NCBI GenBank assembly: GCA_028293125.1
Contig: JAQGPJ010000002.1
Coordinates: 1-64,000 of the forward strand
Origin: Verrucomicrobiales bacterium
GTDB lineage: Bacteria; Verrucomicrobiota; Verrucomicrobiia; Verrucomicrobiales; V1-33
Reading direction: 5' to 3'
Length of the DNA stretch: 64,000 nt
A model generated the notes under the pieces. It saw only the letters and a list, made by a program, of their open reading frames with translations. It did not search any database and had not been told where the DNA came from. The translations under genes were made by a program, and so were the position numbers. This document shows, one piece after another, positions 5,325-59,687 of the stretch; position 1 is the first letter of the stretch, and each line of letters starts with the position of its first letter.

Positions 5325-5329
5325 CGGCC

Positions 5330-7468: not shown

Positions 7469-7493
7469 CCTGGGGGAGCTTTGCTCCCCCAGG
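7469..7493 (+). terminator. Strong hairpin downstream of the ArdC-like gene
   Basis: CCTGGGGGAGC (7469-7479) and GCTCCCCCAGG (7483-7493) form a perfect 11-bp stem with a TTT loop, 118 nt after the ArdC stop. No U-run follows, so it may be a terminator of the Rho-assisted kind or an mRNA-stabilising hairpin. Confidence 0.5.
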
Positions 7494-7581
7494 CCCCCTC
7501 GTCTGATTCCAGCCCCGTTCCCCGGACTCCCCCGCCAACAGAAGTTGGATCCGGATAAGCGATGGGGTTCCGGAGGCGGAG

Positions 7582-34000: not shown

Positions 34001-37000
34001 GGCGAAGGAGAACATCGCCCGCAGCACCACCGTCCAGCGCGGGCTCTCGCCCGGCTTCTCCAAGTCGATCGTCCAAGCCCGGCGGTCGGACAGGTTCCCC
34101 TGGCTGCGCGACAGCACCTTCAGCTCCGAGAGCAGCGCGCGGATGTCATCAATGAGGTCCGCCTTCTTGATGCTGGTGAGCGTGAAGCGGTAGCCGAAGC
34201 CCAGGCCCACCTCGCGCAGGTAGAGCGGCAGCGCCGCCATCTGCAGGCTGAACTTGCGGGCTTCTAGATACACGAACCAGGCCCGCACCCACTCCTCGCT
34301 CTCCGGCCGCCGCACCCGCAGGAAGGCGAAATTCGCCCCCAATTCGGGCAGCCCGTTGATCAGCAGGGTGCCGGTCCCGGCGAAGCCCTTCGCCTCGATC
34401 CCGGAATCGTCGAAGGCCTCGCCATCGAAGTAATCCAGCGAGCCGCCGATCTTGAAGGCGGAGCCGAAGGCCACGCTGAGGGCGAGCCCGGAGGCCTTGA
34501 TCCGCGGGAAGGGATTGTTTCCCTTCGGCAGGCCCAGCAGCATCTCATGGAAGTCGAAGCGCGCATCGATGATATCGCCGCCCGCCAGCGCGAACTTGAT
34601 CTGGCCGACCAAGGCGATCGCCGGATCCCCGCCGAAGGCATCCGCTGCGGGCAGGAAGCCGATCCCGCGCAGCTCGAATTCGAAGCAGCCCAGGAACTTG
34701 AACTTCTTCACCGTGGGCAGCGTCACGGTGAATTTCACGTGCTTCTTCAGCACGCTCCAGTCGGAGGTCAGCGGGCAATTCAGCAGGTCTAGCTTGATGC
34801 CCGGCAGAAAGGCCAGCGCATTCGAGTCCGGGATCGCGCCGGGGTCGAATTCGGCGCTGCCGGTCAGGGTGAAGTAAAAGTGCGCCTTCGGCTCTCCGGC
34901 GAAGCGCAGGCCCAGGCCGCTGAGGGAGGTCTTGAACTTGGTGCCCTCGCACTTCAGCGGCTTGTTCAGCTTGAGCTCCGCACCCGAGTTCAGGACCTTG
35001 AAGTTGCCCGCGCGCTCGCCCATGGAGATCCACGCGCTCACTTCCGCATCTCCCACCAGGTCCGGTGGCAGGGAGCCCTCGCCCTTCAGGGTGAAGTCCT
35101 GGACCCGCCCTTGGCGCAGCGCCAGCTTGCCCTCGCTGAAGCGGAACTTGGTGCCCACCCCGTTAAGCCGCACCGGCTTGTCCGCCTCGATCACGGCATC
35201 CAGGTCGATGCCGTTGCCATTCACCACGAAGTGATCCACGCGGAAGACCAGCGGCTCCGCGGAGATGGTATTCGCCTCGATCCGGATCCGCGCTCCGGGC
35301 ACCGGCCGGATCTGGAAATTCCCGCCGGCCAGGTGCACCTCCAAGTAGCGCATCAGCCCGCCTGGTGCCAGCACCCCTTCGAAGATGAAGCGCAGGCCGG
35401 GCAGGAATTCCTGGTCGATCTTCGGCGCGGTGTCGGCCAGCACCAACTTGTCGCCGACGTTGATCTTGAAGGCGAATTGATCGAGGTCGAAGGCCAGCGC
35501 GATCCGGCCCTCCGCGCGCATGCGGCCCAGGATGACGCGCAGGTCCGCGCTGCAACGGATCGCCGGGATCTCGATGCTGGTCTGGAAGTTCCCGACTTCC
35601 ACGTATTGCGCCAGCGCCTGGCCGATCGCGCCGCCGGCATTCTGCAGCTCTTCCTTCGCCTTCAGGAAGGGCAGCATGAAGCGGTCGCTGAACTTGGCAT
35701 CGAGAGCCCACTCCGCCGCACTGAAGTTCGCGATGTTTTCGATATCGATCCCAAGCGCTCCGGCGGCGACCTGGTCGGGCAGGGAAGGGTTCAGCTCCTT
35801 GAGGAATCTCCGGCGCGGCCCGCTGCCATTCAGATACTGGCCGAAGTAAACCACGGAGCGCGGCGAGGTGCGTGGCGTGGCGGTGAGCGTGAGGAAGGGC
35901 TCCTTCTTCTCGTCCTTGCCATCTTCCTCGCCCAGATAGCGGCCGCTTCCGCCCTCCGGTCCACCATCGCCACCGAGTGCGAAGCTGGGATAGAGCTTGG
36001 CCGTCTGACCCGGACAGATCGTCTGCAGGAAGAGGACCTGGGGATCGCCCTTGTCCAGGCCATCCACGATCAGGCTGTAGGAAAAGCCGCTGCAGCTTTC
36101 CACCGGCAATTCCAGCGTGACGCCCGGCAGCTTGAAGTGCCTGACGGTCGGCTGCTGCGGATTCTGCGCGCGCTGCCAGTCGAAGCGCAATTGGGCCGGC
36201 CGGCCATCGTGCCACACGGTCGAGATCGCGACCTTTTCCTGCACTGCCTGCGCGACCTCCTGGCCGGCGGTGACGAGTCGCTCGCCGGTGTCCTGGATCT
36301 GGTCGCCGATCTGGCGCAGCAGGCGCGAGGCGTCGCTCTGCTGCCAGCGGATGCCGAGTTCGCGGACTTCCTGCTTCAGCTTGCGGGCGACGCGGTCGAG
36401 GATCTGCTCGAGCTTGAGCTCCACCCTTTCGCCGAGCGCGCGGAAGTCGAGCGCGAGCTGGCAGTCATCGGGCTGGAGCTTGCCGTTCTTGAAGACGATG
36501 ACGACGCCATTTGCCTGCACGAGCTCGCCGCCGGCCACCGCGCTGGCGAGGCTGAGCTGGCGGATGCTGAGGGTGCTGGTGAGATCGGGGCTGGTGTAGT
36601 CGTTCTTCAGCCGCGCGCCGGTCCAAGCGAGCGCCAGCACTTGATGCGCGCCGGTCCCGAACTGCAGCACATGATCCGGAATGTCCGTGCTGGCGGCCCC
36701 GGCCGCGGTGATACTGAGCCGGCGGTGATCCAGCGCCACGCTCAGACCGGGAGCGGTGACCGTGCCCAGCTCGGTGCCGGTGCCCGCATCCAGGATCGTG
36801 AGTGAGGTGGCGGAGAAGGCCGCCGTGCCGGTGGCCCCGGCACCGGTGAAATTGGCCTGGAAGCCCTGCGCCCGGATCTTGAAAGGGAGCTTCGGCAACT
36901 GGAAGTTGAAGTCCGGCCAGGCCAGGGGGAAATGGAAGGAGGGCAGGAGATTGCTCAGATCGAGATCGAAGGGCAGGCTCAGCCCCAGCTTGGGCAGGCG

Positions 37001-37516
37001 GAACCGGAACTTCGGCACCAGGGTATCCGGGCTCAGGAGGATGAAGCCGGCGCGCAGCAGATGCTCCATGTCGGTCCCATCCTGGCTAATCAGGAACCAG
37101 GCGAAACCGGTGATCTCGAAGAAGGGCCGCTCGTCACTGTAGTCATCCAGCGGCGCGAAGCGCAGGCAGGCCCATATCCTGGCCCGTGCGGCCAGGTCCG
37201 GTCCTTGGAATTCTAGGCTGCCAAGCTGGAAGTGGCCGGGAGCGCCCGCGGCCAGATCCATCTCCCACTCCAAGGTCTGCGCCGGGATAGTCCAGGTGGC
37301 GGGGTCCCTGAAGCGATACACGCCATTTCCATCGGGACCCTCCAGCAGCTCCATGGGAATCTCCCGGGCCGTGCCATGGCATTGGTACCTGACCGATCTG
37401 GTGATGGTGAGTAGAACCGAGACGACGGAGAAGTGCGTGCCTTTCACATCGCCGGAGAGCAAGATTTCCAAAATCGTGCCGCTGTCTTCTTTTTTGACGA
37501 GTTCTATGGAAGCCAT
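25019..37516 (-). CDS. Giant multidomain protein of unknown function (4165 aa)
   Basis: A single 12.5-kb frame. ATG at 37516 is preceded by AAGGA 11-15 nt upstream. There is no signal peptide or classical transmembrane helix. Rough map: 1-350 beta-rich; 360-430 amphipathic helix with coiled-coil character (ELKLEQILDRVARKLKQEV); 500-1100 many strands of the type LRG.G...F.F, AsmA/lipid-transfer-like; 1090-1460 a segment rich in G.G/F strands (LREVGLGFGYRFTL; GIGLSIDAEFGVEAWLRIKI), possibly DUF6603-like; 1920-2030 fibronectin-III-like (ITYYYTIVPVDQFGQAGP); an acidic linker near 3120 (DDGDGDEDEDEEAPETED); 3200-4165 mixed domains. It could be a structural scaffold, a polymorphic-toxin-like effector or a lipid carrier; nothing decides. 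First gene of the operon. Confidence 0.85.
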   Translation of the reverse strand: MASIELVKKEDSGTILEILLSGDVKGTHFSVVSVLLTITRSVRYQCHGTAREIPMELLEGPDGNGVYRFRDPATWTIPAQTLEWEMDLAAGAPGHFQLGSLEFQGPDLAARARIWACLRFAPLDDYSDERPFFEITGFAWFLISQDGTDMEHLLRAGFILLSPDTLVPKFRFRLPKLGLSLPFDLDLSNLLPSFHFPLAWPDFNFQLPKLPFKIRAQGFQANFTGAGATGTAAFSATSLTILDAGTGTELGTVTAPGLSVALDHRRLSITAAGAASTDIPDHVLQFGTGAHQVLALAWTGARLKNDYTSPDLTSTLSIRQLSLASAVAGGELVQANGVVIVFKNGKLQPDDCQLALDFRALGERVELKLEQILDRVARKLKQEVRELGIRWQQSDASRLLRQIGDQIQDTGERLVTAGQEVAQAVQEKVAISTVWHDGRPAQLRFDWQRAQNPQQPTVRHFKLPGVTLELPVESCSGFSYSLIVDGLDKGDPQVLFLQTICPGQTAKLYPSFALGGDGGPEGGSGRYLGEEDGKDEKKEPFLTLTATPRTSPRSVVYFGQYLNGSGPRRRFLKELNPSLPDQVAAGALGIDIENIANFSAAEWALDAKFSDRFMLPFLKAKEELQNAGGAIGQALAQYVEVGNFQTSIEIPAIRCSADLRVILGRMRAEGRIALAFDLDQFAFKINVGDKLVLADTAPKIDQEFLPGLRFIFEGVLAPGGLMRYLEVHLAGGNFQIRPVPGARIRIEANTISAEPLVFRVDHFVVNGNGIDLDAVIEADKPVRLNGVGTKFRFSEGKLALRQGRVQDFTLKGEGSLPPDLVGDAEVSAWISMGERAGNFKVLNSGAELKLNKPLKCEGTKFKTSLSGLGLRFAGEPKAHFYFTLTGSAEFDPGAIPDSNALAFLPGIKLDLLNCPLTSDWSVLKKHVKFTVTLPTVKKFKFLGCFEFELRGIGFLPAADAFGGDPAIALVGQIKFALAGGDIIDARFDFHEMLLGLPKGNNPFPRIKASGLALSVAFGSAFKIGGSLDYFDGEAFDDSGIEAKGFAGTGTLLINGLPELGANFAFLRVRRPESEEWVRAWFVYLEARKFSLQMAALPLYLREVGLGFGYRFTLTSIKKADLIDDIRALLSELKVLSRSQGNLSDRRAWTIDLEKPGESPRWTVVLRAMFSFASAAGSPTEWNATKEKALPNLALFDVVMALRSDLTFLMTMRGWLFTNYHAYVEKVKPGLQENPLVSGFMLLSPRKRMFLAHMSSNENAVFGGNPELWDILEAAIKSTRFSATFLAKPGLVHMELGWPNNLRYGYKMGGILQVEISAGLLQRVETRRYISGLSLMARGRLDLEAGLSMGFFGVRVVARADVAFGARLITVIGLRNPIKDSALYMGIGLSIDAEFGVEAWLRIKIGFCKITLRFGFTFRLVFTALVEIGMDGIDLPGLRAKGTLGLKVLGRTLRIGVDVGFRKNELQRARDLTAEIMNLGLEANDGIPELPGMTGPKTFRDGAPGFHEAAPGARQAFPAEPIPADITGPDYTVLHAEWSGTDGGGTRLRYVYFMLVPRGERPRNGAPGEWEEEPAFLPPPPPVSFTTDEHGAHHEQDVDRPHVDFLIRHLNGDCTYPIEQFSREGGNYGWRSRDNRQFPTSVDWDATISEPGGVYNVQAGQEATPRQDAQPQPLSLKRYVTGAFISEFTAADGTGHTSFDEDAFETEGISLIRAAHQPALPQLEPGASLRDSRIENPADNAYEAALLASVQQLRRSPHFRHDPNSEYDQFLRQAFGGDSSTYHVTDPGATPQEPPPWVRRHENALHTRGVMLQQMISQFRDYAAKDFTAKQALEAEAATRPLLPFAFGLVFRVVLPENGEINLGWLDNPTPDPAAPDTDAPRIRQRLGPAAENPDSDEKIVRAFASRSLGFKKIAPIFRNARVFADAASIGVSWQLDWDLSKFAAQDQLSDAQRDIEHHLAYYEVTRITLQGREAPRKFRIKAADSLAPHRLETAVVVNRRLAPRYQFTDYFHGQDQAGTGADKLPLSGITYYYTIVPVDQFGQAGPARTVEATRFPEVLPQALSEAEFSICYEFVRPNHSLDLTLYDPQYAVNPDNDLAESRKLLAVQAIEVLFPRPDDFTDGGYRLVFRKEATLALGSYGLDGGTRDHATVRNPSLNTSRAPTDVIVPLVTLDPNPPPNRSGRWVRYTVTPEELEQARIKHATDWQPEAWSVFVQAVAYETAADGRLTLTVRAESSLTPARLALRFSNQGDTLAEDDPLRKVRRPALLEWLPRNFISELHPERDLQKQVEFAHVPMPVSGTYDVNPTDSPLLAGIGFLRHPKHPRMLRMRWNPAHHDKPGYPAALNAGFTLHELDLDSISSRLLKKAKPGTGGNYPDLEEYRNQIWAKTRHLSEIQLVPADEAALVPHSTLATNEWEAWYPSSVTRAKEQPDGKEHAWWSWRESYLIWPEWSSGATEEDPLEPDALTPEGQPRIRPAFNLRPHPAQLAFATTALPVFIDTAITPGAILSLQFIPGETDDPNSRILLYNPQVHPGTTASAIYDPQSKGLGITFSDVVGEITARRVILEAVRYLLFAMRPPQQESFRVKLRLELPLEPPLGQGFNNQEAEIALITTDQVPVIERYAGQHSAEKPPRAADTLHPFLGAVVRAMETENRKQLYNCEIQGLPEARTEKWEDFLADSPPGTDEYGWGLLQRLGLSLTFTLRHFSTGEPVSQKQAEERLRTAIQRTLDSQPGWALLRAHLHVEFLIQRGFATGVRLENKFNTRGLLAAMQLSLRPLPRRLLHYQRAIITAPPGQELTLFVRFHSLDDRCEMIEATAPGAAAVTLLNTNRRANPGTLVRVRTDSAGRCHLLFRGLRQEEVADVRVVIPEAGITRHFLGALSARFIETHQDETGAIWTSWDDGIFIGLQAPENRKQIRAALTKRHLSIGHGAELPGGNQIAFRFRYSGAGVPAEPLRITCNVSLTYDAGPVVTGSPPVKFISDPNDPARFGVLVLDRFVSGKELTSATVNVTAPADNLWAPLDGHASRTWTRGAPPQDTTPALPREPEPFLYIARSHPTVVLERVAHPGQASTPAEGLPAPDDAPYDVYRTFGDWPAFFGTATCIPEPRQPDDGDGDEDEDEEAPETEDRNSPQAQWHLFKALVESLRPVDPSTPAKQLLPLDTASIDTLAANFLAWTVRFHEHRGCNSGADGTEGPWQATAYPRSGAPAFAVPEDDGRLRYDHFLEDRWAHARRYYLWPFSRYDRFWHGLVEGHPAAELLTRLNGSRLPAVRRLSSAAIAFRPQDFIKRHVDASIARIEEVEAPLILASRRLDEIVPGDQALTPGKTWEVILARHPEQALADHNSTLRRRLSFRRVQWALLRRPIYLKWKSHAETQWLPPGTSVVFPAHRPDTLPQYPATALGPISKTPLEVERDNLLELALPPRGLKFHDGAMVVQWDAQPYCYAHRFIACAISGQIASPLTEILQKDFQFISPGGLTAFLAADNRPPDSPADPATLRQDDLTELLVLSFELASFWDCLPQDVRTQWPCEDPANATGNERFYTSLPDPDVGYEFLLTQGGDVARQDELHFKIASNDGSPPRNPLNNEPMNWIPAIEGKGRRILLEGRPLVSLPPAAAPATRLQMSCLASPLRSILPPQAKDETAIIHMKGSEGPVALHQRIYKSCWELSNLGREADITLASIRAGKDPVSRGHPCTLVAAELPPDMLLETGHLMIVRKGRLGTLHGGYLATLQAAAPGYQELADMLDRIRNGPEDDYQRESVLWMPLLPATADPDGSGFFPQAATFGWDPHGRIEFKAGAYLQGLPAGLPFRVAAERLLPLRDEFPEAAMAASAAELNAHFGLTDATDHFVARTGGGVIFIYSARHAPGPDLPTLRASSAGHADEARLAALWNQVEHHLTNVVPGRAEALPVPPVNRRVNDVLIVGTRLLREGSPAVVAEIANYYQGLPFEPMDLRAVPRLAAHQDFQNRMQRAFGAVEIFEQDPTDFLGEDDWTSNERHWKYRLKVEQLEDEEENPAPVFRWLGAKPGRNDIEAIIAANPGNPQVERAALALNRAPWPDNTEPNSFEQRLPTGTALQIPAGLENRLQLCQWQIRYTGILGSAHAQELADFFGSAADKEAVKRMKLATLHRALDGWKPLLRTRRGGATPGTIKVKVAPDPI

Positions 37517-45292: not shown

Positions 45293-45357
45293 GGCTTACA
45301 GCCAATTTGCTGAAAACCCAATATTTTGCACGCTGAAGTTGTGGGTAATCAAAAGTC
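45293..45357 (-). mobile_element. 65-bp terminal relic of a second IS4-type element
   Basis: Read on the minus strand it begins CTTTTGATTACCCACAACTT and continues with CAGCGTGCAAAATATTGGGT and TTTCAGCAAATTGGCTGT, almost the same as the left end of the element at 55755. The rest of that element is gone. Confidence 0.8.
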
Positions 45358-45381: not shown

Positions 45382-46758
45382 CTAACGAATCCTAAGCCTA
45401 GCTGCGGGATCGCCGCATAAAACGTAGTTTCGGGCGTCCATCGCGGCAGTCCAATAACGTGCCAAACGTGAAGCTGTGCCCCGGCGAAGGTGAGTTCCCT
45501 TTTGCAACGCTGTGATCATCTCCACTGCCAGTAAAGTGGAGAGGCTGGCGTAACGTTGACCAAGATTGTGAAGGGCATGCCCCAGACGTTCGCCTCTTAT
45601 GATGCGTTCCAATGTTTGCCTGAAGTCTTCGGTCTGAGAGTCAGCGGAGCCAAACTTGAATGAAGTGGTCCAAGCTAGGTCCACGTGTCCGAAGAACCCT
45701 AACGCTGGACCTGCCGGGTGCGCGAGCAGTTGAGTAGCAAGCGCAGATTGGAAGGTGTGAGGCGCAATTTGCTCCACTTTGAGGAGATTGGGATTACCAG
45801 GGAAATTATCCATCCGTGGCGTACCGGCTCCAAAGCAAGCGAAAGAAAACCATACCAACCCACGAAGGTCCCCGGCCTGCTGCAAATCAGCGGCTGTGAA
45901 CTGTTCGCCGTTCTCGCACAGAATCGCTCCCTGACCCTTAAGTTGACCGGCGTCACCCATATCAAATCCGACGCCGTGCGTAGCACTGAACACCACCGGT
46001 ACACGTTCGCTTCCGTGCAGAAAACGTGCAAGACGATCCTTGGTGGCCTGTGGACCTGTGACGCTTTGAATCTTCCAACTGCCCGGTACGATCTTCATGG
46101 CCAAGGGCTCAATCAACTGCTTTGCGCTGAGCGAGGTCGATGGGTCGCCGTCATTGGTGGGGCCAAAGAACGCCAGCTTCTGGGTGAAGATCAGTTTCTT
46201 TTCCGCTGCGACGACTGCTTCAGCGTAGCGTTGCCACTCCTCAGGCTGGGTGAGCGTGAGGCGGCCAACGGCGTAGTCCACAGCCAACGCAGTTTGGAAC
46301 TCATACGGCACTATGACCGGCTCTCCCACAATCAAGAGGTAGTAGGGCAGCTTTGCTGGGTTGATGGTACCTGGACTGACTTGATGGCGTTCAAGCAAGG
46401 CCGATACGTCTTCTAGCTCGCCGGAGTTTGATACCTGAAGGTCAATCTCGCGGTAGAGCGGGCCGGCTACTGCCTTGCGCTCCTGCAAAAGTGGCGCGAG
46501 GGCATCCTTCACAGCGGCGGGTGTGTTGGGTGCCCAGAGCACCGCCCATCCGGTGCTGCTCAAGTCGTCGGGCACGATGCCATCAGGCAATCCGCCCTTG
46601 AACTCAATATTATCTGGCACCACCGCCACGGGCTCTGCGCGACGCACGCCACCCAAGGTCTGAAGGATCCACGAGGCCAGTACCTCCGCGCTTACGGGCG
46701 GGCGGAGGGGTTTGCCTGTGCCCGCATGGATCCCCATGGGTTGAAACTTTTCTAACAT
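45382..46758 (-). CDS. Gingipain-like (C25 / clan CD) cysteine peptidase
   Basis: 458 aa, no signal peptide. VDYAVGRLTLTQPEEW (160-175) is the C25-like strand motif (D.a.GR...). VVFSATHGVGFDMG gives the catalytic His261, LVWFSFACFGAGTP gives the catalytic Cys308; the C-terminal YVLCGDPAARLR matches the GDPa.rl end seen in C25 and CHAT peptidases. Gingipains cleave after Arg or Lys, but specificity is not readable here. Lack of a leader suggests a cytoplasmic enzyme, unlike secreted gingipains. It is the last gene of the eight-gene operon, 57 nt after the 472-aa gene, whose product may be a partner or substrate. Confidence 0.75.
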   Translation of the reverse strand: MLEKFQPMGIHAGTGKPLRPPVSAEVLASWILQTLGGVRRAEPVAVVPDNIEFKGGLPDGIVPDDLSSTGWAVLWAPNTPAAVKDALAPLLQERKAVAGPLYREIDLQVSNSGELEDVSALLERHQVSPGTINPAKLPYYLLIVGEPVIVPYEFQTALAVDYAVGRLTLTQPEEWQRYAEAVVAAEKKLIFTQKLAFFGPTNDGDPSTSLSAKQLIEPLAMKIVPGSWKIQSVTGPQATKDRLARFLHGSERVPVVFSATHGVGFDMGDAGQLKGQGAILCENGEQFTAADLQQAGDLRGLVWFSFACFGAGTPRMDNFPGNPNLLKVEQIAPHTFQSALATQLLAHPAGPALGFFGHVDLAWTTSFKFGSADSQTEDFRQTLERIIRGERLGHALHNLGQRYASLSTLLAVEMITALQKGTHLRRGTASRLARYWTAAMDARNYVLCGDPAARLRIR

Positions 46759-46815
46759 AACTTCGAATTGGGGAAAAGTGTTGTGGAGAAGCCAGCGCCG
46801 ACGCGACCGCAGTAT

Positions 46816-48234
46816 CTACTTCTGCTGGGCGACAAGGACTGCGGGCTTCAGCACGGTCCCGTCTGCGTTGCTGAACAGCTGCCCGCGCACGGTGGTGAAA
46901 GGTGACTTCCAATCGATACTGGCATAGAGCGGACGGATGGCATTCACGGCTGATTCTACTTCCGCGTCCCGATTCCCTTTCTCATCCTCAATCAGCAGCT
47001 TGAGCCCGTCCATGAGCATGCGCGCCCCAAGAGTACAACAGGGCATGCCACGCTGGATGGCGGCGAGGAATCGTTCGCGAGCCTGTGGTAGGCGACCGCA
47101 CCGCAGGTGCTGGCTGGCATTGATGATGGCCCCATCAGCCAAATGTTTAAAATATTGGTCGAGATTGTCTACCCATTGGGTGAGTTCCACAGCTGTGACA
47201 CCCGCGATCCTAGACCGCTTGCGAGTCCAAGGGGGGGTCATCAGCAACAGATAGTATCCACCGATAAGGGCCGCGGAGAGATTACGGAACTTGCCCTCCA
47301 AGGCACGGATTGCATGCGATAGATACTCGTCCGCAATCACGCGGGCTTGGTTAAAATGTCCGCCGCTCAGATAGCTGTAGAGCACCATGGCGTGACGATC
47401 ATTGAACTCGGGCATGAGATTCCAAGGGGATGCGACCTCGCAGACCTGCTTCTGAGTCGGGTCAAAGATTACAAGCAATCGTGTCGTCTCTGGCGGCAAA
47501 AAAGCAAAAGTTTGGAGTGGGAACTTCGATGCCTCCGCCTGAGTCACTGGTGAATCATCGATTGCCAGCACCGGCACCGTGCCCGCAGGAAAATGGCACT
47601 CGAACTCAGCGACCACGTTGGGATCATTCGTCGCGCTGTACAGTCCCGAAAGTCTCTCCAACACATACTCTGTCCCCGCTGGAGCAAGACGTAGCAGTGA
47701 TCCCGGCTGCCTCAGTGGCTGGGAGTCCGCCATTTGCAAATACAGGTCAGCCTTGAACCAATGTCGCAGGATGGATGCTGATGGCTGTTCTATTGGGATG
47801 CTTCTTGCTTCTGCGGCGGGCTCGAACGCAGCAGATTCTAGGGTCGAAAGAACTTGGATGCTTGCGGTTGTCTGGGGAGCCTTGAATTGCGAGCCTAATG
47901 ATTTGAGGGCTGAGGTACTCAACGCCCGCCTGCCCGGATGAAGTAGATAACCCCAGGCAGCGGTCTCATTCGGTGAAAAGATGCTATCCAGATAGAATTC
48001 CCCCTGGCCTTTGCCTTCCATTACTTCGATGTTTTTGGCCACCAATCCACCGTTTGGCAGTCGCAAGCGTACCACATAGCGCCCATCCGCGACGCCAGAT
48101 ATGGTCTCCGTGCTGCCCAATTTCAGAGCAACGCTTCTGGTTCTTCTACCCTTGCGAAGTGGGATGATTTCAGCCGCGACGATCGAGCCATTCGCCGAAC
48201 CGCCGTGCACATGGAGAGTCAAGCTGCTATTCAT
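46816..48234 (-). CDS. Unknown protein with N-terminal beta-sandwich and helical C-terminus
   Basis: 472 aa from ATG 48234; an in-frame TTG at 48246 overlaps the caspase stop. Residues 1-80 (SSLTLHVHGGSANGSIVAAE; ISGVADGRYVVRLRLPNGG) look like a carboxypeptidase-regulatory-like or prealbumin-like beta-sandwich. The middle (about 150-290) is mixed alpha/beta with no motif. The C-terminal 200 residues are helical and Cys/Arg-rich (LRCGRLPQARERFLAAIQRG), TPR-like in character. No catalytic motif. It lies between two caspase-fold peptidase genes, so it could be their substrate, adaptor or inhibitor. Family not recognised. Confidence 0.75.
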   Translation of the reverse strand: MNSSLTLHVHGGSANGSIVAAEIIPLRKGRRTRSVALKLGSTETISGVADGRYVVRLRLPNGGLVAKNIEVMEGKGQGEFYLDSIFSPNETAAWGYLLHPGRRALSTSALKSLGSQFKAPQTTASIQVLSTLESAAFEPAAEARSIPIEQPSASILRHWFKADLYLQMADSQPLRQPGSLLRLAPAGTEYVLERLSGLYSATNDPNVVAEFECHFPAGTVPVLAIDDSPVTQAEASKFPLQTFAFLPPETTRLLVIFDPTQKQVCEVASPWNLMPEFNDRHAMVLYSYLSGGHFNQARVIADEYLSHAIRALEGKFRNLSAALIGGYYLLLMTPPWTRKRSRIAGVTAVELTQWVDNLDQYFKHLADGAIINASQHLRCGRLPQARERFLAAIQRGMPCCTLGARMLMDGLKLLIEDEKGNRDAEVESAVNAIRPLYASIDWKSPFTTVRGQLFSNADGTVLKPAVLVAQQK

Positions 48235-48242
48235 GGCTTCAA

Positions 48243-49355
48243 TCAAACATCAGGAACTTCCACTGGGTAAACCGGGGGCACGAGACGTTCCTCCTCCTTG
48301 GTCCGGACAGGGGAGTTTTTCATGTGAATTTTGATATCGTAGTCGCCCACAGCAAATGCATGCCGGTAGGGATGGCACACCGGGTGCTCCGCACCATCCC
48401 TTCGGTCTGTGAAAATACAGCTGTCAACTTCATCCAAGGCTTGCCCCAAATCCACGTTCGTCAGTACTTCCGGCTCCTTAATGCTGCAGATGCGTTTGGT
48501 GCCTGCGGTGCTTTCCATATTCAAGGCAAGGACAGGGGCTTCGCCCTGCCCGCGACGGTCGAGATATTCCTCAAGCGCTCTGCCTAAGGAGGTGGTCGTC
48601 ACCCTCCAAGGATTGCGGCCATCATTCGCCGAGGCTCCGTAACGCTTTAGGCATTCAATCAGGCCCACAGTAAAATCCGAAGGGAGGTTCTTCTGGCTTG
48701 CAGCACGCTGGCCCTCCGCCGCAGAGTGGTAGACCGGCGCTTCGCGTTTGGGAGTAAAGCCCTTCTCGGGAGACGCCAGCGTGCGGCCAACGGGCCCGGT
48801 GGTCAACAGGGCCTGGCGCGCAAGGTCCTGACAGGCATCGATGAAGAAACACTGGGTCTCCGCCCGGCACCTGGCCATTCCCTTGTGCGTCGCATTGAGG
48901 TCGATGCAGTCCTCCCAAGGAGTGTTTTTGTCCGAGCATACATCTTCCGGCAGGATATAGGATGATTCATTGATGAAGCCGTGCCCACAGAAGTAGAAAA
49001 GGGCCACGCAATTCTTGTGCTCATTGCACGCTTCGATCCAGTCATTGAAGTGCCTCTTGATGTTGCCAAACGTGGGGGTATCCACTGTTGTCTCCGAATT
49101 GTCCGACCGGACGAACTTACCACCACTCAACAATACACGAGCCGATCCAAAGGGGACCGCCAAGCTGGCTTTCTCGTCCAGCAGCCAATTGGCAAACAGG
49201 GAGGCCGAAGGCACCGGTGAAGTCAGCTGCTTCAAGGTGCTCAGTATGGTGGCGTCCGCTTTCACTCCACCTGCAAGGTGCGGATAATCATTGACCCCGA
49301 TGATCAGGGCGTGGGTCGCGGGTGAGGCGGTGGTGCGTTCTACAATTGTGGCCAT
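48243..49355 (-). CDS. Caspase-fold peptidase (metacaspase type)
   Basis: 370 aa. THALIIGVNDYPHLAGGVKA (14-33) is the first strand of the p20 unit (usual form ALLIG...Y). VALFYFCGHGFINESSYILP (117-136) contains catalytic His125, and CFFIDACQDLARQ (169-181) contains catalytic Cys175. About 190 residues follow, including NPWRVTTTSLGRALEEYLDR (the p10-like region) and a short beta tail. There is no signal peptide or fused sensor domain. Prokaryotic metacaspases cleave after basic residues and act in regulated death or defence; this is family knowledge, not shown here. It is followed immediately by the 472-aa gene and preceded by the nuclease 30 nt upstream. Confidence 0.9.
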   Translation of the reverse strand: MATIVERTTASPATHALIIGVNDYPHLAGGVKADATILSTLKQLTSPVPSASLFANWLLDEKASLAVPFGSARVLLSGGKFVRSDNSETTVDTPTFGNIKRHFNDWIEACNEHKNCVALFYFCGHGFINESSYILPEDVCSDKNTPWEDCIDLNATHKGMARCRAETQCFFIDACQDLARQALLTTGPVGRTLASPEKGFTPKREAPVYHSAAEGQRAASQKNLPSDFTVGLIECLKRYGASANDGRNPWRVTTTSLGRALEEYLDRRGQGEAPVLALNMESTAGTKRICSIKEPEVLTNVDLGQALDEVDSCIFTDRRDGAEHPVCHPYRHAFAVGDYDIKIHMKNSPVRTKEEERLVPPVYPVEVPDV

Positions 49356-49385
49356 GACACCAAGAGATATGACGAACTGGACGGG

Positions 49386-50324
49386 TCACCTGAGCACAAT
49401 GTCTTCAAGTCCCTCAAGCACCAATCCCGGAACGTCCTTCCCCTCGGCAAAGCCGAGTGACAGATCCTTCAACGGGTCGACACTGGCCACTTCGCCGAAG
49501 TCCAGACCGGTGATTTTCTCCAAGTCGGAGACTTTGATCTGGTCGGTTTTGAAATCCCCAGGGGAAAAGCCTTTGAACGAGCCAGGTTTGGGCATGGTGA
49601 GGCATTTCTTTTTGAACGCCAGGGCCAGCAATCCATTTCCACTTTCATTGCGCGTTACCACCAGCTTGTAGAAGGAGTCTGGGACCGCGATGGTATCATC
49701 CAAATAAAGCGGGTCGTCGTCCGTAAGGATGGGGCCGGTGAATACGGTGACCCGGCTGTGGCGATCCCCAGCCTCCTCAATGATGTGATCCTCCAAGTCC
49801 CCCCAAAGGCCGTCATTGAAGGTCTGCACCTGCGGCAACGCGTTGGGATAATGGGAAGTGTCTGCATTGGCTTGCGTTGCCGCCTCGACCGAGCCCCAGA
49901 GGGGATCCGTCCTGCGCACCATGTGGCCGCGACTGAAGGTATCCGGTCCGTAGAGCGTTTCGTCATCAATCTGGCAGTCCACCGCGCGGGGATCGCGCCT
50001 GAAGGAGCGCCGCTTGATTTTGAAAAAGGGCTCGTCGCCCGCGATATTTACCACCGCCACCCGGCAGAACTTCCGGCTTGCGCTCATGATTACTGAGAAA
50101 TTCCTGTAGCAGAGTTCCGTGGGCAGATGTCCCTCATGAGGTTCCTTGATTTTGAATCCGTCCGCCTCGTGAATCCCGAGAATGCCTTCGAGAGGAACGA
50201 TGAATTTCTCCGCGCCCTCGGAGATGTTACCATTTTCGTCACGTGTGAGGAAAGCGGGATCATAACCATTGCGGTCAGCAAAATCCGTTGCTTTGATGGC
50301 GAAACTTTCGAGTTCGTCTGACAT
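49386..50324 (-). CDS. DNA/RNA non-specific endonuclease (NUC1 family)
   Basis: 312 aa, no signal peptide. FSRGHMVRRTDPLWG (130-144) is the DRGH motif of Endonuclease_NS (PF01223) with Ser in place of the first Asp; the general base is His134. NALPQVQTFNDGLWGDLE (161-178) supplies the Mg-binding Asn (N170) and the E178 helix. Serratia-type nucleases cut both strands of DNA and RNA; most are secreted, but this one lacks a leader and so could degrade the cell's own or invading nucleic acid. The first 70 residues and last 60 are extensions not seen in minimal members. It sits between the subtilase (35 nt) and the caspase (30 nt). Confidence 0.9.
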   Translation of the reverse strand: MSDELESFAIKATDFADRNGYDPAFLTRDENGNISEGAEKFIVPLEGILGIHEADGFKIKEPHEGHLPTELCYRNFSVIMSASRKFCRVAVVNIAGDEPFFKIKRRSFRRDPRAVDCQIDDETLYGPDTFSRGHMVRRTDPLWGSVEAATQANADTSHYPNALPQVQTFNDGLWGDLEDHIIEEAGDRHSRVTVFTGPILTDDDPLYLDDTIAVPDSFYKLVVTRNESGNGLLALAFKKKCLTMPKPGSFKGFSPGDFKTDQIKVSDLEKITGLDFGEVASVDPLKDLSLGFAEGKDVPGLVLEGLEDIVLR

Positions 50325-50359
50325 AGGTCGCAGGAATGGAAGTTGTGGCGGATTGATGA

Positions 50360-52438
50360 CTACTGGCTGATGCGAACAACCAGTGCGTAAGATTGGGGGC
50401 GCAGAGTAATTCGAGCAGCTTTGACCGTGATGGTAAGCACGCCGGCGGCGGGGTCATCCCATGCCACCTGCTCCACGTTATTTGCGCGATCAAAGCTGGG
50501 ATCATTCGGCTGCCGGTTCCCATGACATTCGGTGCCGGCGCTGTCACGAACGATGAGGTCCAAGTCACTCTGCAAGTCCGGACCGGGTGGGTCGGTCCAT
50601 ACGAGAGTCACCTTTATCTTCGTTCCAGCAGCAAGAGTTACGTCGCGGCTCTCGATTTCCTGGGTATCCAGTTCGCTGCCTTCATCAAAAAAGGACAGTG
50701 TCACCGAAGCTTCGTGATTGATGGTATCCGCCACGTTGACGCGGCCAAAGCCTTCGCTGTTGTTCGGAACGGCAGGCGCCTCAGAGGGATTGTATTGGCC
50801 GGTCATGTCGGTCGCACCATTGATCAGCAGCGCCTTCATCAACGCCGCACTGGGATTAGTAGTGACATGTTGCGTGGCCAGCCATTCCCGGACCAGCGCC
50901 GCGCAACCCGCCACCAATGGAGTGGACATGCTGGTGCCCCGGGAAAAGCGGTAGTCGGGATCAACTGTTGGCATGACCACCGAGGCTGCGGGCATCTTCC
51001 GTGATCGGGCGGAAAGTATGAATGTGCCTGGCGCCACGACATCAGGCTTGATGCGTCCATTCAAGGTGGGACCCCTTCCGCTGAATGCTGCCATGCCATC
51101 GGCATTGTGCGCTTGGTGATCATCGCTGATCGGCGGAACAGGCCAGCGATTGTCTGGCCCCCAGGTCAGTGATACCGGTGACGGACTGGGAGCAAAGGGG
51201 TTACTGGGTCTCAGGTTTTCACTCGCACCAACCGTGAGGCAATTCTTCGCCGTTCCGGGAGCGGTCACAGACTTGGGCGCGATCACGCCACTGGAGTTGA
51301 TATCCCTGCCCTCATTCCCAGCGGCAAACAGGACCAGCATGTTACGATTTTTGTAGACGAAGTCATCCACCTCCTCGGAGCTGGCACTGTAGGTTCCGGC
51401 GGAACCGGCGGTCCCCCAGGAATTCGTATGCGTGCGAGCGCCATCGTTGGCATAGGGCGGGTGAAGCAATTGGTGCATATCAACTGGAAGACCGCCAAGT
51501 GTATCGTTGGCATTTCTATAGCAGCTTTGCAGCACCAGCATGGCCTCCGGGGCCGTGCCCTGCACCCGCACTCCAAGAGCAGTTGAGTTCCCGTCCCCCA
51601 GTACCGATCCGGCCACGTGAGTGCCATGCCCATGTGGGTCACTTGCATCCGGGGGGCTTTTGCGCCCCAGGGCATATAGCGTCTTAACCTTGCCGAGGAA
51701 GGCCGGATGAATGGTCGAGTCCTTCATTCCATTGTCGAATCCCGTGTCGGCCACTGCTACCACCTCACCTTCTCCTGTGAAAGCCGGTTGCCCGGTAGCG
51801 CTCGCCAAAGGGACGGCGAGAATGCCGCGTGCCACATTGTTGCTGAGTTCAGGTGGGAAGACTCTTTCGATTTGGCTGACCACGTCGAGCCTTTTCATCT
51901 GTTCAATCGCGGATGGTGCGGCACGCAATCTGACCTTGCGAGTGCCCCGGGATTCCTGAGGGATCTCCTGATCGATGGCCGCTTCCACCTGCTTGACCCC
52001 CTGCTCCAAGGCGACATCCTGGTGAAAAACCACGTCCACTTCCTGCACTTCGTCACGGGGACGGCCTTGTGGTGAAGCCATCTCTTCAAAAGCAACGACA
52101 TCAGGCTTTTTCGTAAGATGCGTCAGCGCCGGGTCCACTTTGAAAATTTCATAGTAGGGAAGGACCGTCTTGACGAAGGGCAGCGCCAGTAATGAGTCCG
52201 CGTTGGAAGGCAGGAACCGGCATTTGACAGTGCTGTCTGACTTGTACTCCAGAACTTCACCGCCAGCATCAGCCAGCGCTTGAGCCAGCCCCTTCTTCAC
52301 GTCGGGATCCGCCAAATCGGAAACCACCACCAAAGCGTAGTTGGTCTTAGCGACGGACTCGGGAAGCATGGCCGCAGCTGAATCGAAGGACGCTGGCGCA
52401 TCGAGATCGAAAACAATATTGTTGATGGTAATCTGCAT
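50360..52438 (-). CDS. Subtilisin-like serine peptidase (S8), leaderless
   Basis: 692 aa. Residues 1-215 are an unusual N-terminal region with strand/helix pairs (ALVVVSDLADPDVKKGLAQA) like a tandem inhibitor-I9 prodomain. The catalytic domain spans 220-540: VVAVADTGFDNG (Asp231), DPHGHGTHVAG (His271), AAGNEG (oxyanion Asn375) and SRGTSMSTPLVAG (Ser503). The last 120 residues are a P-domain-like beta-sandwich (VTLVWTDPPGPDLQSDLDL). No signal peptide, so it probably works in the cytoplasm after prodomain removal. The position upstream of a nuclease and a caspase suggests a possible activator or executioner role; this is inferred only from the operon. Confidence 0.92.
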   Translation of the reverse strand: MQITINNIVFDLDAPASFDSAAAMLPESVAKTNYALVVVSDLADPDVKKGLAQALADAGGEVLEYKSDSTVKCRFLPSNADSLLALPFVKTVLPYYEIFKVDPALTHLTKKPDVVAFEEMASPQGRPRDEVQEVDVVFHQDVALEQGVKQVEAAIDQEIPQESRGTRKVRLRAAPSAIEQMKRLDVVSQIERVFPPELSNNVARGILAVPLASATGQPAFTGEGEVVAVADTGFDNGMKDSTIHPAFLGKVKTLYALGRKSPPDASDPHGHGTHVAGSVLGDGNSTALGVRVQGTAPEAMLVLQSCYRNANDTLGGLPVDMHQLLHPPYANDGARTHTNSWGTAGSAGTYSASSEEVDDFVYKNRNMLVLFAAGNEGRDINSSGVIAPKSVTAPGTAKNCLTVGASENLRPSNPFAPSPSPVSLTWGPDNRWPVPPISDDHQAHNADGMAAFSGRGPTLNGRIKPDVVAPGTFILSARSRKMPAASVVMPTVDPDYRFSRGTSMSTPLVAGCAALVREWLATQHVTTNPSAALMKALLINGATDMTGQYNPSEAPAVPNNSEGFGRVNVADTINHEASVTLSFFDEGSELDTQEIESRDVTLAAGTKIKVTLVWTDPPGPDLQSDLDLIVRDSAGTECHGNRQPNDPSFDRANNVEQVAWDDPAAGVLTITVKAARITLRPQSYALVVRISQ

Positions 52439-52474
52439 TGCGTTGCCAGTGGTTTAAAGGATGGTGGGAGAAAC

Positions 52475-53434
52475 TCACGCAATGGCCTTGGAGGCGTAGT
52501 GAACCTTGTCGCGATCGCCCTGTCTCCAAGCATAGTTCAAGGTCTTGTTTTTCTCACCTGAGCCGCCCAACCTTCCCCAGTAGGCGGTGGGATACTTCCC
52601 GTGAGCCAATCCTCCAGTCACAACCACCACAACGTGGCCATGCGATGAAGGCTGTGCCTGCTCGTTGCCGCGAAGACCTCCCACCACAAACTCGCCGCTG
52701 TCAGCCGCCGCCTTCGCAGCTGCGCCGTCGGCAATCTGGCGCCAACCAGGCCCTGTGATGATGTCGGTGATGTGATTGGCGTCACCGTCTAGGCCGGCTA
52801 CTCCGACCAAGGCAGCCACCGCTTTTGCAAACGCATTGCAGTCGGCCTTGTTGCCTTCCCATTGGTCTTCACAGGAAGCGAGAATGCGGGCAGCCTTGGC
52901 ATTGACCGTATCCATGACCACAGGCGTTTCTGCGCTGGGCGCAAAAGCGGCAAAGGTATCACCCGCCAGAACAGCCGATTCCTGCCCCGGAGGTGACAGG
53001 GCCAGCCGGTTCAATCTGTCTTCCATGATCGCCACCCGGTCTGCCATGGGTCTCTGCTCTGGCGGTTGCGAGCCTCCTGGATAGTCTTCGCCTTCTTCCT
53101 TTCGTGGGTTCTTGCGCCGACCATCAAGGAACCATGTCCAAGTGAAGACGCCGTTAGAATTTTTCACCAAGATCATGAGCAAGGCGAAGTAACTGAAAAA
53201 GCCCATGAACAGGCCTATCCCGTAGGCGCCGAACATTTCTTCCTTGGTCAACTCCTGATTCTTGGACTCAAACAAGGTCATGACCGAACCGCCACCGATG
53301 ATGCCGATGAGCGTGGTGAGATCGCTGAACTGGACATCACCCTTGCGATAACGGTTGATGTAGTAAACAAACCAACCAATGAGGACACCGAAGGCGGCGG
53401 ATCCAAGCAGTGGAAGCGTGTGCGCGGAAGTCAT
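52475..53434 (-). CDS. Membrane-anchored papain-like hydrolase (putative amidase/NlpC-like)
   Basis: 319 aa. Three hydrophobic segments: LPLLGSAAFGVLIGWFVYYI (7-26), LTTLIGIIGGGSVMTLF (39-55) and YGIGLFMGFFSYFALLMILV (71-90). A charged, Pro-rich linker follows to about 175. Residues 180-319 look papain-like: KADCNAFAKAVAALVGV puts Cys199 at a helix start, and SSHGHVVVVVTGG gives His265/His267 at a strand, the order found in NlpC/P60, CHAP and type VI amidase (Tae) proteins. The substrate could be peptidoglycan or a protein; the side of the membrane is not clear. Overlaps the preceding 87-aa gene by 4 nt (ATGA), so the two are coupled. Confidence 0.7.
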   Translation of the reverse strand: MTSAHTLPLLGSAAFGVLIGWFVYYINRYRKGDVQFSDLTTLIGIIGGGSVMTLFESKNQELTKEEMFGAYGIGLFMGFFSYFALLMILVKNSNGVFTWTWFLDGRRKNPRKEEGEDYPGGSQPPEQRPMADRVAIMEDRLNRLALSPPGQESAVLAGDTFAAFAPSAETPVVMDTVNAKAARILASCEDQWEGNKADCNAFAKAVAALVGVAGLDGDANHITDIITGPGWRQIADGAAAKAAADSGEFVVGGLRGNEQAQPSSHGHVVVVVTGGLAHGKYPTAYWGRLGGSGEKNKTLNYAWRQGDRDKVHYASKAIA

Positions 53435-53694
53435 GAGTCAGATGTGTTGGATTGAATTGCAGACAGGAATGCGGTGTGAAGGGCGGCCCCCAGCAAAAAT
53501 CCGGTGGGCGCTCCCCACCAAGCCCCGGTAAACATGATGCTCACGAGGAAACTTGTGAGCAGGCAGGCGGCAACCATGACAATACCCGGCAGCAATCGGA
53601 GCCATGCGCGCCCCACCAACACCGCAGCCCAGCCAAGCACCAGCCCGACTATTCCGTGAGGCAATGTACGCCATAGGTCAGATTCAATGTTCAT
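53431..53694 (-). CDS. Small integral membrane protein (87 aa)
   Basis: Three hydrophobic segments: GIVGLVLGWAAVLVGRAWL, LLPGIVMVAACLLTSFLVSI and WWGAPTGFLLGAALHTAFLS. The arrangement resembles the N-terminal three-helix part of the next gene's product. It overlaps both neighbours by 4 nt, so the three are translated together. It could be a partner of the membrane hydrolase, or a small pore or anchor; no family recognised. Confidence 0.75.
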   Translation of the reverse strand: MNIESDLWRTLPHGIVGLVLGWAAVLVGRAWLRLLPGIVMVAACLLTSFLVSIMFTGAWWGAPTGFLLGAALHTAFLSAIQSNTSDS

Positions 53695-55523
53695 GGTTTG
53701 AAGGCAAATTCCAAGGACTCGATCTCCAGCAGCACGTGGGCATCTTTCTTGGATGCCACCTGCAGACCCAGCACAAGGGCGGCGTTACTGACAGATTGAA
53801 TCACTTCTCTGGCGTGGCCCTTGCCCAAGAAGTCCAGATAACGCTTCACCAGATCTTCGGCGAGAGCATTCACTATCCTATATTTGTAATCAATTGGCAG
53901 GATGAGAAACGCGCTGGTAAAACGTTGCATGCCGGCGGAGAAGGAATGCTTACAGTCCACTCGCAGGTCGTAATAGCCACACAGTTGAATGCCTAGCACA
54001 TGCTTAAGCACGGCCTTGATTCTCGCTTTCAAAGTGTCTTCGCTCAACATATCGGGCGGAATGGCCCCCACCTCAATGGGTGAGAAGAAGCGGTTGGCCA
54101 TCCGCACCAACTCAGGGTAATAAACGGGGGCACACACATAGACCAAGCAGGAGGTGGCCTTGAAATCTAGGAAGCTGTCGTTCCGTGCTAACCGTAGATT
54201 GGGCCGGAAGGCGGTGGCGCTCTTCTCACCGAACAAGCTCAATATCCCATTGTCTGCCACCCCATCCGCTTCCGCCTTGATGACAAACCGCGTTATTCCC
54301 GTCGCGGGGGCAATTTCACCGTCCTCAATGGGCGCAATCTGCGCCACCACGCGCCTGCGTTTCTGATTGTCGGAGTGGCCAGCAACGATTATGGGAGTTC
54401 CCGACAGTGACAAATCGCCTTCCGTCGGCTTTTCGGTTTTGGATGACAGAACGGTCCGTTTGCGAAGATCAAATTCGTTAAATATAGGCACAATTTTATT
54501 CGCAGCATTATCTCCGAATGGCAGGAGGTTATAGTCCCTGATGGCGCTTGGTGGTTCAAGAGTGAGGTTACCGCCGACTATGGCAGTGGTGAGGCGTCCC
54601 ATCGCCTTCCTTGAGTGGGTGGATAGAATGCATTTTCCGGATTCGCTGGTCAGCTCGACAAACGAGGCTTCCGTAGTCGTCTGGCGAGTGATATTTTCAA
54701 ACCCAAAGCCATATACGGCGGTGCCGCCCCAATGAATTGCCAGCCTCATCCCGAGCCGCAGCGGCACAACTCCCAGCTTTTCACCAGCCAATGTTCGAGC
54801 AGAATCGGCAACGCGGATGAACTGCTGAGGAAAGTAACGAATGTAGGGAGCCGTCGAAGGTTTGAGCGCATCCAAAGGTAGTGGCTCCTGCCAGGAAAAG
54901 AAGTCGTCAAACCTCGCCGTATACACCACCTTGCGCCAGAAGTTCCTCAGCTTCTCTTCAAATAGGTCCGCAAAGCCCGCAATCGGCTTGTTCAGACAGT
55001 TCAAAAGATACTTCGGCTGGTTTTGCCGTACCAGCCAACAGCCAAATTTGTGCTGCAATGACCTGAACTCATTCCAGCTTAGCTTGCGAATCTCCCGAAC
55101 CGTGGCAGCACTCGCGATGATGACCAATTTCCCTTCCTTGGCAGCCGGACGGAGCACCTCAATCTTATGCGCCGGCGTCCTAGACAATGGATAACCCAAG
55201 ATTACGGCGGGGTTGCGGTTATCCTTGAGCAGGAAGTCATTCATCTCCGACCGTGCCCTAGTGGCAGGTATCCCCATATTGTTCTTCCTTGAGCGAAATA
55301 CAAGTGCACCCTCGGCATCGCCTACTGCGATACTCTCGCGGCATTCGCACCCCGTCCCAGTGATCCAAGCCAACGGCACGATATCAAACGAATCGCTGGC
55401 GTGCAAAGTGGATGCAATGGTGCCTGCTGCACCGACCAAAGCAAAAACATGAAAGATACACCGGACAATCTGATGGGCCAACGTCGCAGGCAAGCGACTT
55501 TGAGTGATGCTTATAGGCCACAT
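53691..55523 (-). CDS. Unknown 610-aa protein, first gene of the hydrolase operon
   Basis: ATG at 55523 is preferred over a TTG two codons earlier. A hydrophobic stretch near the N-terminus (IVRCIFHVFALVGAAGTIAS, about 19-38) looks like a signal anchor. The next 150 residues (AVILGYPLSRTPAHKIEVLR; KLVIIASAATVREIRKLSWN) are alpha/beta. The middle has beta strands with the phrase IHWGGTAVYGFGFENITRQT, and the C-terminal 200 residues are helical with LGIQLCGYYDLRVDCKHSFS. No catalytic motif is seen and I do not know the family. As the promoter-proximal, probably membrane-anchored member it is the best candidate for a sensor or regulator. Confidence 0.75.
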   Translation of the reverse strand: MWPISITQSRLPATLAHQIVRCIFHVFALVGAAGTIASTLHASDSFDIVPLAWITGTGCECRESIAVGDAEGALVFRSRKNNMGIPATRARSEMNDFLLKDNRNPAVILGYPLSRTPAHKIEVLRPAAKEGKLVIIASAATVREIRKLSWNEFRSLQHKFGCWLVRQNQPKYLLNCLNKPIAGFADLFEEKLRNFWRKVVYTARFDDFFSWQEPLPLDALKPSTAPYIRYFPQQFIRVADSARTLAGEKLGVVPLRLGMRLAIHWGGTAVYGFGFENITRQTTTEASFVELTSESGKCILSTHSRKAMGRLTTAIVGGNLTLEPPSAIRDYNLLPFGDNAANKIVPIFNEFDLRKRTVLSSKTEKPTEGDLSLSGTPIIVAGHSDNQKRRRVVAQIAPIEDGEIAPATGITRFVIKAEADGVADNGILSLFGEKSATAFRPNLRLARNDSFLDFKATSCLVYVCAPVYYPELVRMANRFFSPIEVGAIPPDMLSEDTLKARIKAVLKHVLGIQLCGYYDLRVDCKHSFSAGMQRFTSAFLILPIDYKYRIVNALAEDLVKRYLDFLGKGHAREVIQSVSNAALVLGLQVASKKDAHVLLEIESLEFAFKP

Positions 55524-56233
55524 AATCAAATCTTGAGAAGCGCGAAGTCAACTGAGCATGCTAATTTTTCTCGTATTACATATGAGCAAATATAAGAGAA
55601 ATATTCTTGGGGCAAGTTTTTTTTCGATTCTTTTGCGAATTTAGTGGGTTGGACTGTAAGCGTCACCTCAAGCGCCTTGGGGATTGATTTGACTCAGGCG
55701 ATGCGCGCTTTACGGGGTTTGGCCCATGCGGCTGAGGTATAGCCGGGAAGGCCGCTTTTGATTACCCACAACTTCAGCGTGCAAAATATTAAGTTTTCAG
55801 CAAATTGGCTGTGCAACCGTAAAGCCAATTTGCTGAAAAGCCGGGATGAAAAACCAAAAACCGGACCGCGGCGGCAGCAATCGCGCACCTCTCCGTCCTG
55901 AAGGCGGTGATCCTGACGGCTGGGCTGATGAGGAGGCGCGGGCGTCAACTTTCGCGGACGAGCGGCTCCGGAAACGGTTCCGGCGGCTGCTGGGCGAGGT
56001 TCATGACCGCATCGGCGGCGGCATTCCGCACGCCTGCCAGGACTGGGCGGCGGTGAAGGCGGCCTATCGCTTCCTTTTCAATCCCAAAGTGAGCGGGGCC
56101 GGCATCCTGGCCGGCCATTTTGAGGCCCCACGCGCGCGGTTCCAGGCCGCGTCCGGCACGGTTCTGATTCTCCACGACACCACGGAGTTTGTGTTTCAGC
56201 GGGAGAGCGCGGCCGGTTTCGGCCTGCTCACTA

Positions 56234-58811: not shown

Positions 58812-59687
58812 ATGCTAATCGCGATCAATAATCCTACTTTTGGAACAAAAAATATTGCTTCAGATACGGAGACGCAAGAGAATATGCGTTTGGAGACAGA
58901 GGCTTTTGAAGGCAAAGGTGTCAATACGAAATCTCGCGTAGCCCAGAAGCGCATCGTTTTAGCAAATGCCCCATTACCAACAACCGAGTCGTGGATCGGT
59001 GGTGATGATAGGGAGCGGATATACGATACTGATCTATCTCCTTGGCGAATGATTTGTTCCCTTGCTATAACTGCTCCTAACGGTCATTTTATGGGTACGG
59101 GGTGGTTGGCAGGCCCTCGGACCATAATAACTGCAGGACATTGTATTTTTCATTCATTGATGGGGGGATGGGCTTCCAAAATTGTTGTTGCCCCCGGACG
59201 CGACGACACAGACTATCCTTTTTCCAAGTTTCCATCTACGCGCTTCTCGGTTTTAGAGAAATGGGGAAAAGATCAACTTCCTGATTTTGATATTGGGTGC
59301 ATCCATTTGGATCAAGACATTGGGGAGACTTTAGGATGGTTTGGCATGGCATCACTGCCGAATTCCGAGTTAAATCAAAAACGGATTAATGTAGCTGGAT
59401 ACCCCTCTGATAAAGACAGCGGGCGTTTTCTTCTTCACCATCAAGATTTAATAGTGGATGTGCAGGATCGACGCATTTATTACACTGTTGATACCTTCGG
59501 TGGCCAAAGCGGAGCTCCAGCATGGATTCAAAATTCGATAGACGGAGCTCCAATGGTCGTTGGCGTGCATGCATATGGAGTTGGGGGCACAACAACGCCA
59601 AATTTGAATGCAAACTCCGCCCCCAGACTGATTCCAGAGGTTATTGATATTATAAAACTTTGGATTAATGAAGCAAAACCAACATAA
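58812..59687 (+). CDS. Trypsin/V8-like serine protease
   Basis: 291 aa, AT-rich gene. After a leader of about 80 residues without signal-peptide character, WRMICSLAITAPNGHFMGTG and TIITAGHCIFHS give catalytic His; LPDFDIGCIHLDQDIG gives Asp; VDTFGGQSGAPAWIQ gives Ser in the Gly-x-Ser-Gly form. This matches V8-type glutamyl endopeptidases (S1B-like). The N-terminal region may be a propeptide (VAQKRIVLANAPLP before the mature start). Its last 20 nt overlap the next ORF, and a small Cys-rich peptide gene follows, so it may process or be controlled by that peptide. Confidence 0.88.
   Translation: MLIAINNPTFGTKNIASDTETQENMRLETEAFEGKGVNTKSRVAQKRIVLANAPLPTTESWIGGDDRERIYDTDLSPWRMICSLAITAPNGHFMGTGWLAGPRTIITAGHCIFHSLMGGWASKIVVAPGRDDTDYPFSKFPSTRFSVLEKWGKDQLPDFDIGCIHLDQDIGETLGWFGMASLPNSELNQKRINVAGYPSDKDSGRFLLHHQDLIVDVQDRRIYYTVDTFGGQSGAPAWIQNSIDGAPMVVGVHAYGVGGTTTPNLNANSAPRLIPEVIDIIKLWINEAKPT

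Follow-up and report, generated by a model that had tools for sequence, protein, structure and literature searches.

Do the eight minus-strand genes at positions 45382-55529 of this 64,000-nucleotide stretch of verrucomicrobial DNA (contig C2:1-64000, draft genome size 6.48 Mb; hereafter the window) form one system, and what would it do? We propose, with a probability of about 0.55, that this operon is a mobile programmed-death module, probably anti-phage, that merges the caspase–CanB pair of canu-type systems with the NucA–subtilase–amidase set of a second family of conflict systems, System 3. Direct support is available for the foundations of this reading, namely the identities of the genes, their catalytic residues, the linkage of the caspase to a CanB-type partner, the collinearity of the operon with a locus of another Verrucomicrobiales genome (G311), and the fused nature of its first gene.

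Gene content of the operon

Neighbouring genes overlap by 4 nt or are spaced 30-57 nt apart, in agreement with the original prediction of an eight-gene minus-strand operon. In order of transcription, the genes are:

53691-55529, minus strand: P610, open reading frame (ORF) of 612 aa, product of a deletion that joined the beginning of gene A to the tail of gene C
53431-53694, minus strand: tm3, 87 aa, about three membrane helices, 4-nt overlap with both neighbours
52475-53434, minus strand: amidase, 319 aa, Tse1/Tae1-type peptidoglycan amidase, membrane-anchored
50360-52438, minus strand: subtilase (S8), D231/H271/S503 intact
49386-50324, minus strand: nuclease of NucA/EXOG type (Endonuclease_NS), SRGH motif
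48243-49355, minus strand: caspase-family peptidase (CanA-like), H125/C175
46816-48246, minus strand: P472, ORF of 476 aa, CanB-type caspase partner
45382-46758, minus strand: C25-like cysteine peptidase, H261/C308

Pfam searches recognized Peptidase_S8 (142 bits), Endonuclease_NS (PF01223, 123 bits), C14 (44.3 bits) and Peptidase_C25 (27.6 bits), and returned no significant family for P472, P610 or the 319-aa protein. All catalytic residues named in the original prediction were located at their positions in the expected motifs (C199/H267, D231/H271/S503, H134 of SRGH with N170, H125/C175 and H261/C308). Its statement that the enzymes lack signal peptides also held for the C25-like peptidase, caspase, nuclease and subtilase, as a hydropathy scan of these four proteins and of P472 showed neither membrane segments nor signal-like stretches. 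Two details required correction: the ORFs given as 610 and 472 aa read as 612 and 476 aa, and the four protease classes reduce to three families, since the supposed papain-like hydrolase is a Tse1-family peptidoglycan amidase. The ratios of nonsynonymous to synonymous substitution between the window and G311 were 0.11 for the subtilase, 0.16 for the amidase and 0.25 for tm3, and these genes are therefore real.

The amidase matched Tse1 entries of the PDB in phmmer searches (E 1.4e-15 as a single sequence, 1.9e-24 as a profile). It has two predicted transmembrane helices and a C-terminal catalytic domain (about residues 181-317), with C199 and H267 invariant in three homologues, and beyond its own genome and G311 it was absent from the 388 genomes of the phylum sample. 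A Tse1-like membrane amidase is also encoded on a Rhizobium brockwellii plasmid (L012:8503-9516), where a giant gene of about 3950 aa occupies the other strand (1-8310). The preceding tm3 had no PHROG match and is possibly holin-like; in its presumed topology and function, the tm3–amidase pair would resemble a holin with its endolysin.

The subtilase shares 74-75% identity with the collinear G311 gene, which was its only match among 337 genomes of the order. In the C25-like peptidase, H261 and C308 are invariant in four homologues. Its homologues in Sinorhizobium and Nostoc (L010:8629-11410 and L011:7510-10506) form a conserved pair with a preceding alpha/beta-hydrolase gene, with CHAT-domain genes nearby.

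The caspase, its CanB-type partner and the nuclease

In canu (KaeCanABC; Tuck et al. 2025, Science, PMC12799240), the pro-nuclease CanC is switched on by the caspase CanA together with its partner CanB. The window caspase carries H125 in FYFCGHG and C175 in FIDACQD, and its nearest relative in a tree was that of locus L006, although this placement is unsure. Several searches connected the adjacent P472 with caspases. A tblastn search of plasmids with P472 returned three records, each with a caspase gene directly upstream; its Sinorhizobium americanum homologue, used as the query, returned ten plasmids, all ten of which were also in the caspase match list. A profile of the C-terminal domain of P472 found 16 loci (the window and 15 others, of which L050 matched weakly and several had played no part in building the profile), and a caspase adjoined or was fused to the domain in 16/16. 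The linkage thus holds for searches begun from the partner as well as from the caspase. The third gene encodes a metallo-beta-lactamase (MBL) nuclease in eight of these loci (L013, L014, L019, L031, L044, L045, L046 and L047), and the three checked directly (L013, L014 and L019) were of LmuA/Avs1a type by score. On the basis of this constant caspase linkage, and of the MBL nuclease that comes next in eight loci, we classify P472, by its sequence, as a CanB-type caspase partner. Its N-terminal region is probably beta and its helical C-terminal domain is conserved; structure predictions of P472 and of the amidase reached a pLDDT of about 40. A scan of genome contigs with P472 found no relative.

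The pairs in other loci have varied companions. Directly behind caspase genes, the CanB domain is fused to trypsin and phospholipase D (PLD) domains in L006:7356-12722 (1788 aa) and L015:10245-14369 (1374 aa). The caspase–CanB pair is fused to a lipase in L032 and lies beside alpha/beta-hydrolases in L008 and L050. In L031:4663-12036 (genome G015), genes for an OLD-like AAA/TOPRIM protein and a UvrD helicase, which together are Gabija-like, immediately precede caspase–CanB–MBL, an arrangement that suggests a Gabija–canu combination. We also considered whether P472 might instead be the partner of the C25-like peptidase in other genomes, and rejected this, as the protein next to C25 there is an alpha/beta-hydrolase with no relation to P472 (profile comparison probability 0.1%; GHSFG motif in A8).

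The other half of the operon resembles System 3 (Kaur et al. 2020, PMC7159879), which links NucA with a number of peptidases, with S8 and a peptidoglycan peptidase, and with ATPases of the STAND type. The G311 locus is collinear with the window in tm3 (56% identical), amidase (65%) and subtilase (74%), continues with trypsin–NucA, two trypsins and a STAND-like ATPase, and fits the published System 3 gene set (PMC7159879). Where G311 has trypsins, the window has the caspase–CanB pair and the C25-like peptidase. A further locus, that of genome G023, encodes a SIR2-like protein, GDSL lipase, subtilase, caspase, CanB–lipase, small membrane protein, two trypsin–NucA proteins and a trypsin, in that order. 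Caspase–CanB together with NucA and subtilase has therefore been seen twice in this bacterial order, G023 being independent of the window.

These loci also bear on whether the genes are independent modules (tm3–amidase–subtilase, perhaps with NucA; caspase–CanB; and C25) that were stacked by transposition and act separately. Caspase–CanB–MBL, C25 with its alpha/beta-hydrolase, and tm3–amidase–subtilase with NucA (G311) each occur alone elsewhere, as such stacking would predict. However, the genes form an operon on one strand in which neighbours overlap or are closely spaced, their guanine-plus-cytosine (GC) content is uniform, and the linkage of subtilase, caspase, CanB and NucA recurs in G023, so that we regard separate action as a doubtful possibility.

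The nuclease is NucA/EXOG-like and the sole NS nuclease in its own genome. Its alignment with protease-linked NucA proteins starts at D(F/Y)xxRxGYxxxF(L/I), the segment that follows the trypsin domain in the fusions; the window protein has this segment as DFADRxGYxxxFL, followed by an extra stretch (about TRDENGNISEGAEK), and lacks the trypsin domain of its fused relatives. We infer that it derived from a trypsin–NucA fusion by loss of the trypsin, and that its N-terminal segment is the likely activation site.

The P610 deletion and the mobility of the operon

P610 residues 23-375 matched gene A of G311 (43%), and residues 374-612 matched residues 1266-1500 of G311 gene C (57%), which places the junction near position 54407. 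In G311 and in G079, another member of the Verrucomicrobiales, about 10 kb separates the individual genes A and C; all three genes of the cluster, A, B (about 1750 aa) and C (1500-1600 aa), are complete there and show homology over their full length. The window's own genome contains no gene B and no second match to A or C. As the split A-B-C arrangement is intact in both relatives, and hence ancestral by parsimony, P610 is, judged from these alignments, an in-frame A/C fusion created by a deletion that removed about 10 kb, including gene B. The original prediction had described an unknown protein with an N-terminal hydrophobic anchor and had proposed a membrane sensor. The hydrophobic segment is present and comes from gene A, but the ORF is a deletion scar rather than a native protein, which rules out P610 as that sensor. 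The original sensor of this operon copy may have been lost with A-B-C.

The system might alternatively be decayed, with the sensor or assembly part taken by the A/C deletion and the remaining genes vanishing or only partly used. The in-frame scar, the lack of gene B in the genome, and the surrounding insertion sequence (IS) elements with their nested IS630 insertion are all compatible with decay. We nevertheless consider this unlikely, given that all seven genes after the fusion have open reading frames and that catalytic residues are retained in the five with a recognized site, that the fusion stayed in frame and kept its 4-nt overlap with tm3, and that the caspase–CanB–NucA part of G023 does without A-B-C.

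The intact A-B-C genes form an undescribed three-gene cluster with relatives in several phyla. Such clusters (about 550, 1750 and 1550 aa) span L027:14238 to L028:5685 and L029:15837 to L030:7659. Comparison with the PDB, Pfam, NCBIfam, PADLOC and PHROGs gave no meaningful match (B in part only), and a scan of genome contigs with gene C found the G311 contig only. Relatives of B are parts of giant LysM/Ig-like proteins on plasmids of Nostoc, Azospirillum, Tistrella, Lysinibacillus and Mycetohabitans (L034-L038). The window itself contains two adjacent giant minus-strand ORFs of 2718 and 4165 aa (16825-24981 and 25019-37516; 86% GC at third codon positions), which matched no Pfam family, resembled none of the other proteins compared, B and C included, and were rejected as relatives of these genes.

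Tse1 is a type VI effector, and the amidase could accordingly belong to an antagonism or secretion cassette, with A-B-C as an envelope machine and the amidase as an effector against other bacteria. The lipobox-like N-terminus of gene A in G079 and the LysM proteins among the B relatives also favour this reading. Against this, no adjacent secretion genes or type VI secretion system adaptor were seen, the amidase has its own membrane helices, and in G311 it is accompanied by conflict-type trypsins, NucA and a STAND ATPase, making such a cassette improbable.

The operon was predicted to lie between IS elements, and it does. The features at its flanks are:

45298-45355, no strand assigned: left copy of a 58-bp inverted repeat, 27 bp past the operon end and 97% complementary to the right copy
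55755-55812, no strand assigned: right copy of the 58-bp inverted repeat, at the inner end of an IS4-type element
58812-59687, plus strand: Trypsin_2-like protein of 291 aa (26.7 bits against a Pfam cut-off of 27.6)

Each repeat copy has ends of IS4 type, and the right-hand element is split by an inserted element of IS630 type (family names reflect our reading of the transposase sequences rather than a database match). The operon region has a GC content of 56.1%, compared to 61.8% for the window; this low GC and the flanking inverted repeats indicate transfer of the operon. The trypsin-like protein, which lies beyond the right IS element, is related to trypsins of the conflict type and matched the trypsin portion of the CanB fusion in L006 (E 2.5e-8), is a possible displaced operon component. 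Additionally, the window encodes an ArdC-like anti-restriction protein (5987-7351, plus strand), which points to DNA of conjugative or plasmid origin.

Proposed mechanism and comparison with known systems

In the mobile death module that we favour, the caspase would be restrained by its CanB-like partner and become active upon a trigger. The active caspase would then cut the N-terminal segment of the NucA pro-nuclease, leading to DNA degradation, with the subtilase and C25-like peptidase acting upstream or in parallel, while the three-helix protein and tethered amidase would open the membrane and wall so that the infected cell dies. We infer the activation order, the pro-nuclease state, the lysis role, the trigger and the function in defence. 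The original prediction that proteases free a nuclease for suicide or anti-phage defence thus gains backing from homology with canu and System 3, without its membrane sensor.

Several points weigh against this reading. The A/C deletion may have inactivated the system, and the operon retains no sensor ATPase. The canu nuclease is downstream of the caspase, but that of the window is upstream, and no gating insertion was seen in the NucA catalytic core, which leaves the N-terminal segment as the only candidate. P472 was likened to CanB through the domain common to caspase–MBL loci, with Klebsiella CanB (KaeCanB) itself outside the comparison, and a defence function for the window genes is presumed from homology. 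Finally, the complete eight-gene set was seen once, with no second occurrence in any genome searched; G311 and G023 have partial sets.

NucA/EndoG-type nucleases act in eukaryotic apoptosis, and a caspase–NucA operon is therefore a direct prokaryotic parallel; if the proposal is true, a single operon would hold a bacterial counterpart of caspase-activated DNase together with lytic death. The gathered loci indicate that caspase–CanB pairs also occur with NucA (EndoG/EXOG-like), PLD and lipase effectors. More tentatively, caspase–CanB could be a general activation hub, wired to at least three unrelated nuclease folds (MBL, NucA and trypsin-fused PLD) as well as to lipases, and here to DNA shredding by NucA and holin-like/Tse1-type lysis. 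The CanB-type partner also gains a profile usable for annotation.

Comparison with individual systems places the operon between two of them. With canu it shares the caspase, a partner in the CanB position whose homologues occupy that place in caspase–partner–MBL loci, an operon nuclease and a mobile context. Defence by a caspase-activated nuclease was shown in the canu study with an MBL nuclease (PMC12799240), whereas the window nuclease is of NucA/NS type, no MBL match was found in the window, and a subtilase, C25-like peptidase, amidase and membrane protein are added. With System 3, for which a proteolytic cascade deploying NucA was proposed (PMC7159879), it shares a NucA nuclease with the N-terminal segment of trypsin–NucA proteins, and of the optional System 3 components the operon contains an S8 peptidase and a peptidoglycan amidase; it differs in having no recognized trypsin, STAND or EAD1 in the operon (no search with an EAD1 profile was made), the trypsin being present in the G311 locus. 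The amidase has the catalytic domain and Cys/His pair of Tse1/Tae1, but is tethered by two membrane helices, is encoded after a three-helix protein and has no type VI context. IetAS likewise contains an S8 peptidase; we rejected membership, as the PADLOC match covered only residues 441-583 of the subtilase and the ATPase partner gene is absent. The original prediction knew of no described system with the full set, which stands for the combination but not for its two halves, both of which have been described. Because the operon has neither the MBL nuclease of canu in the strict sense nor the trypsin of System 3, we classify it from its gene content as a hybrid of the two, a locus that joins the literature on canu with that on NucA–peptidase conflict systems.
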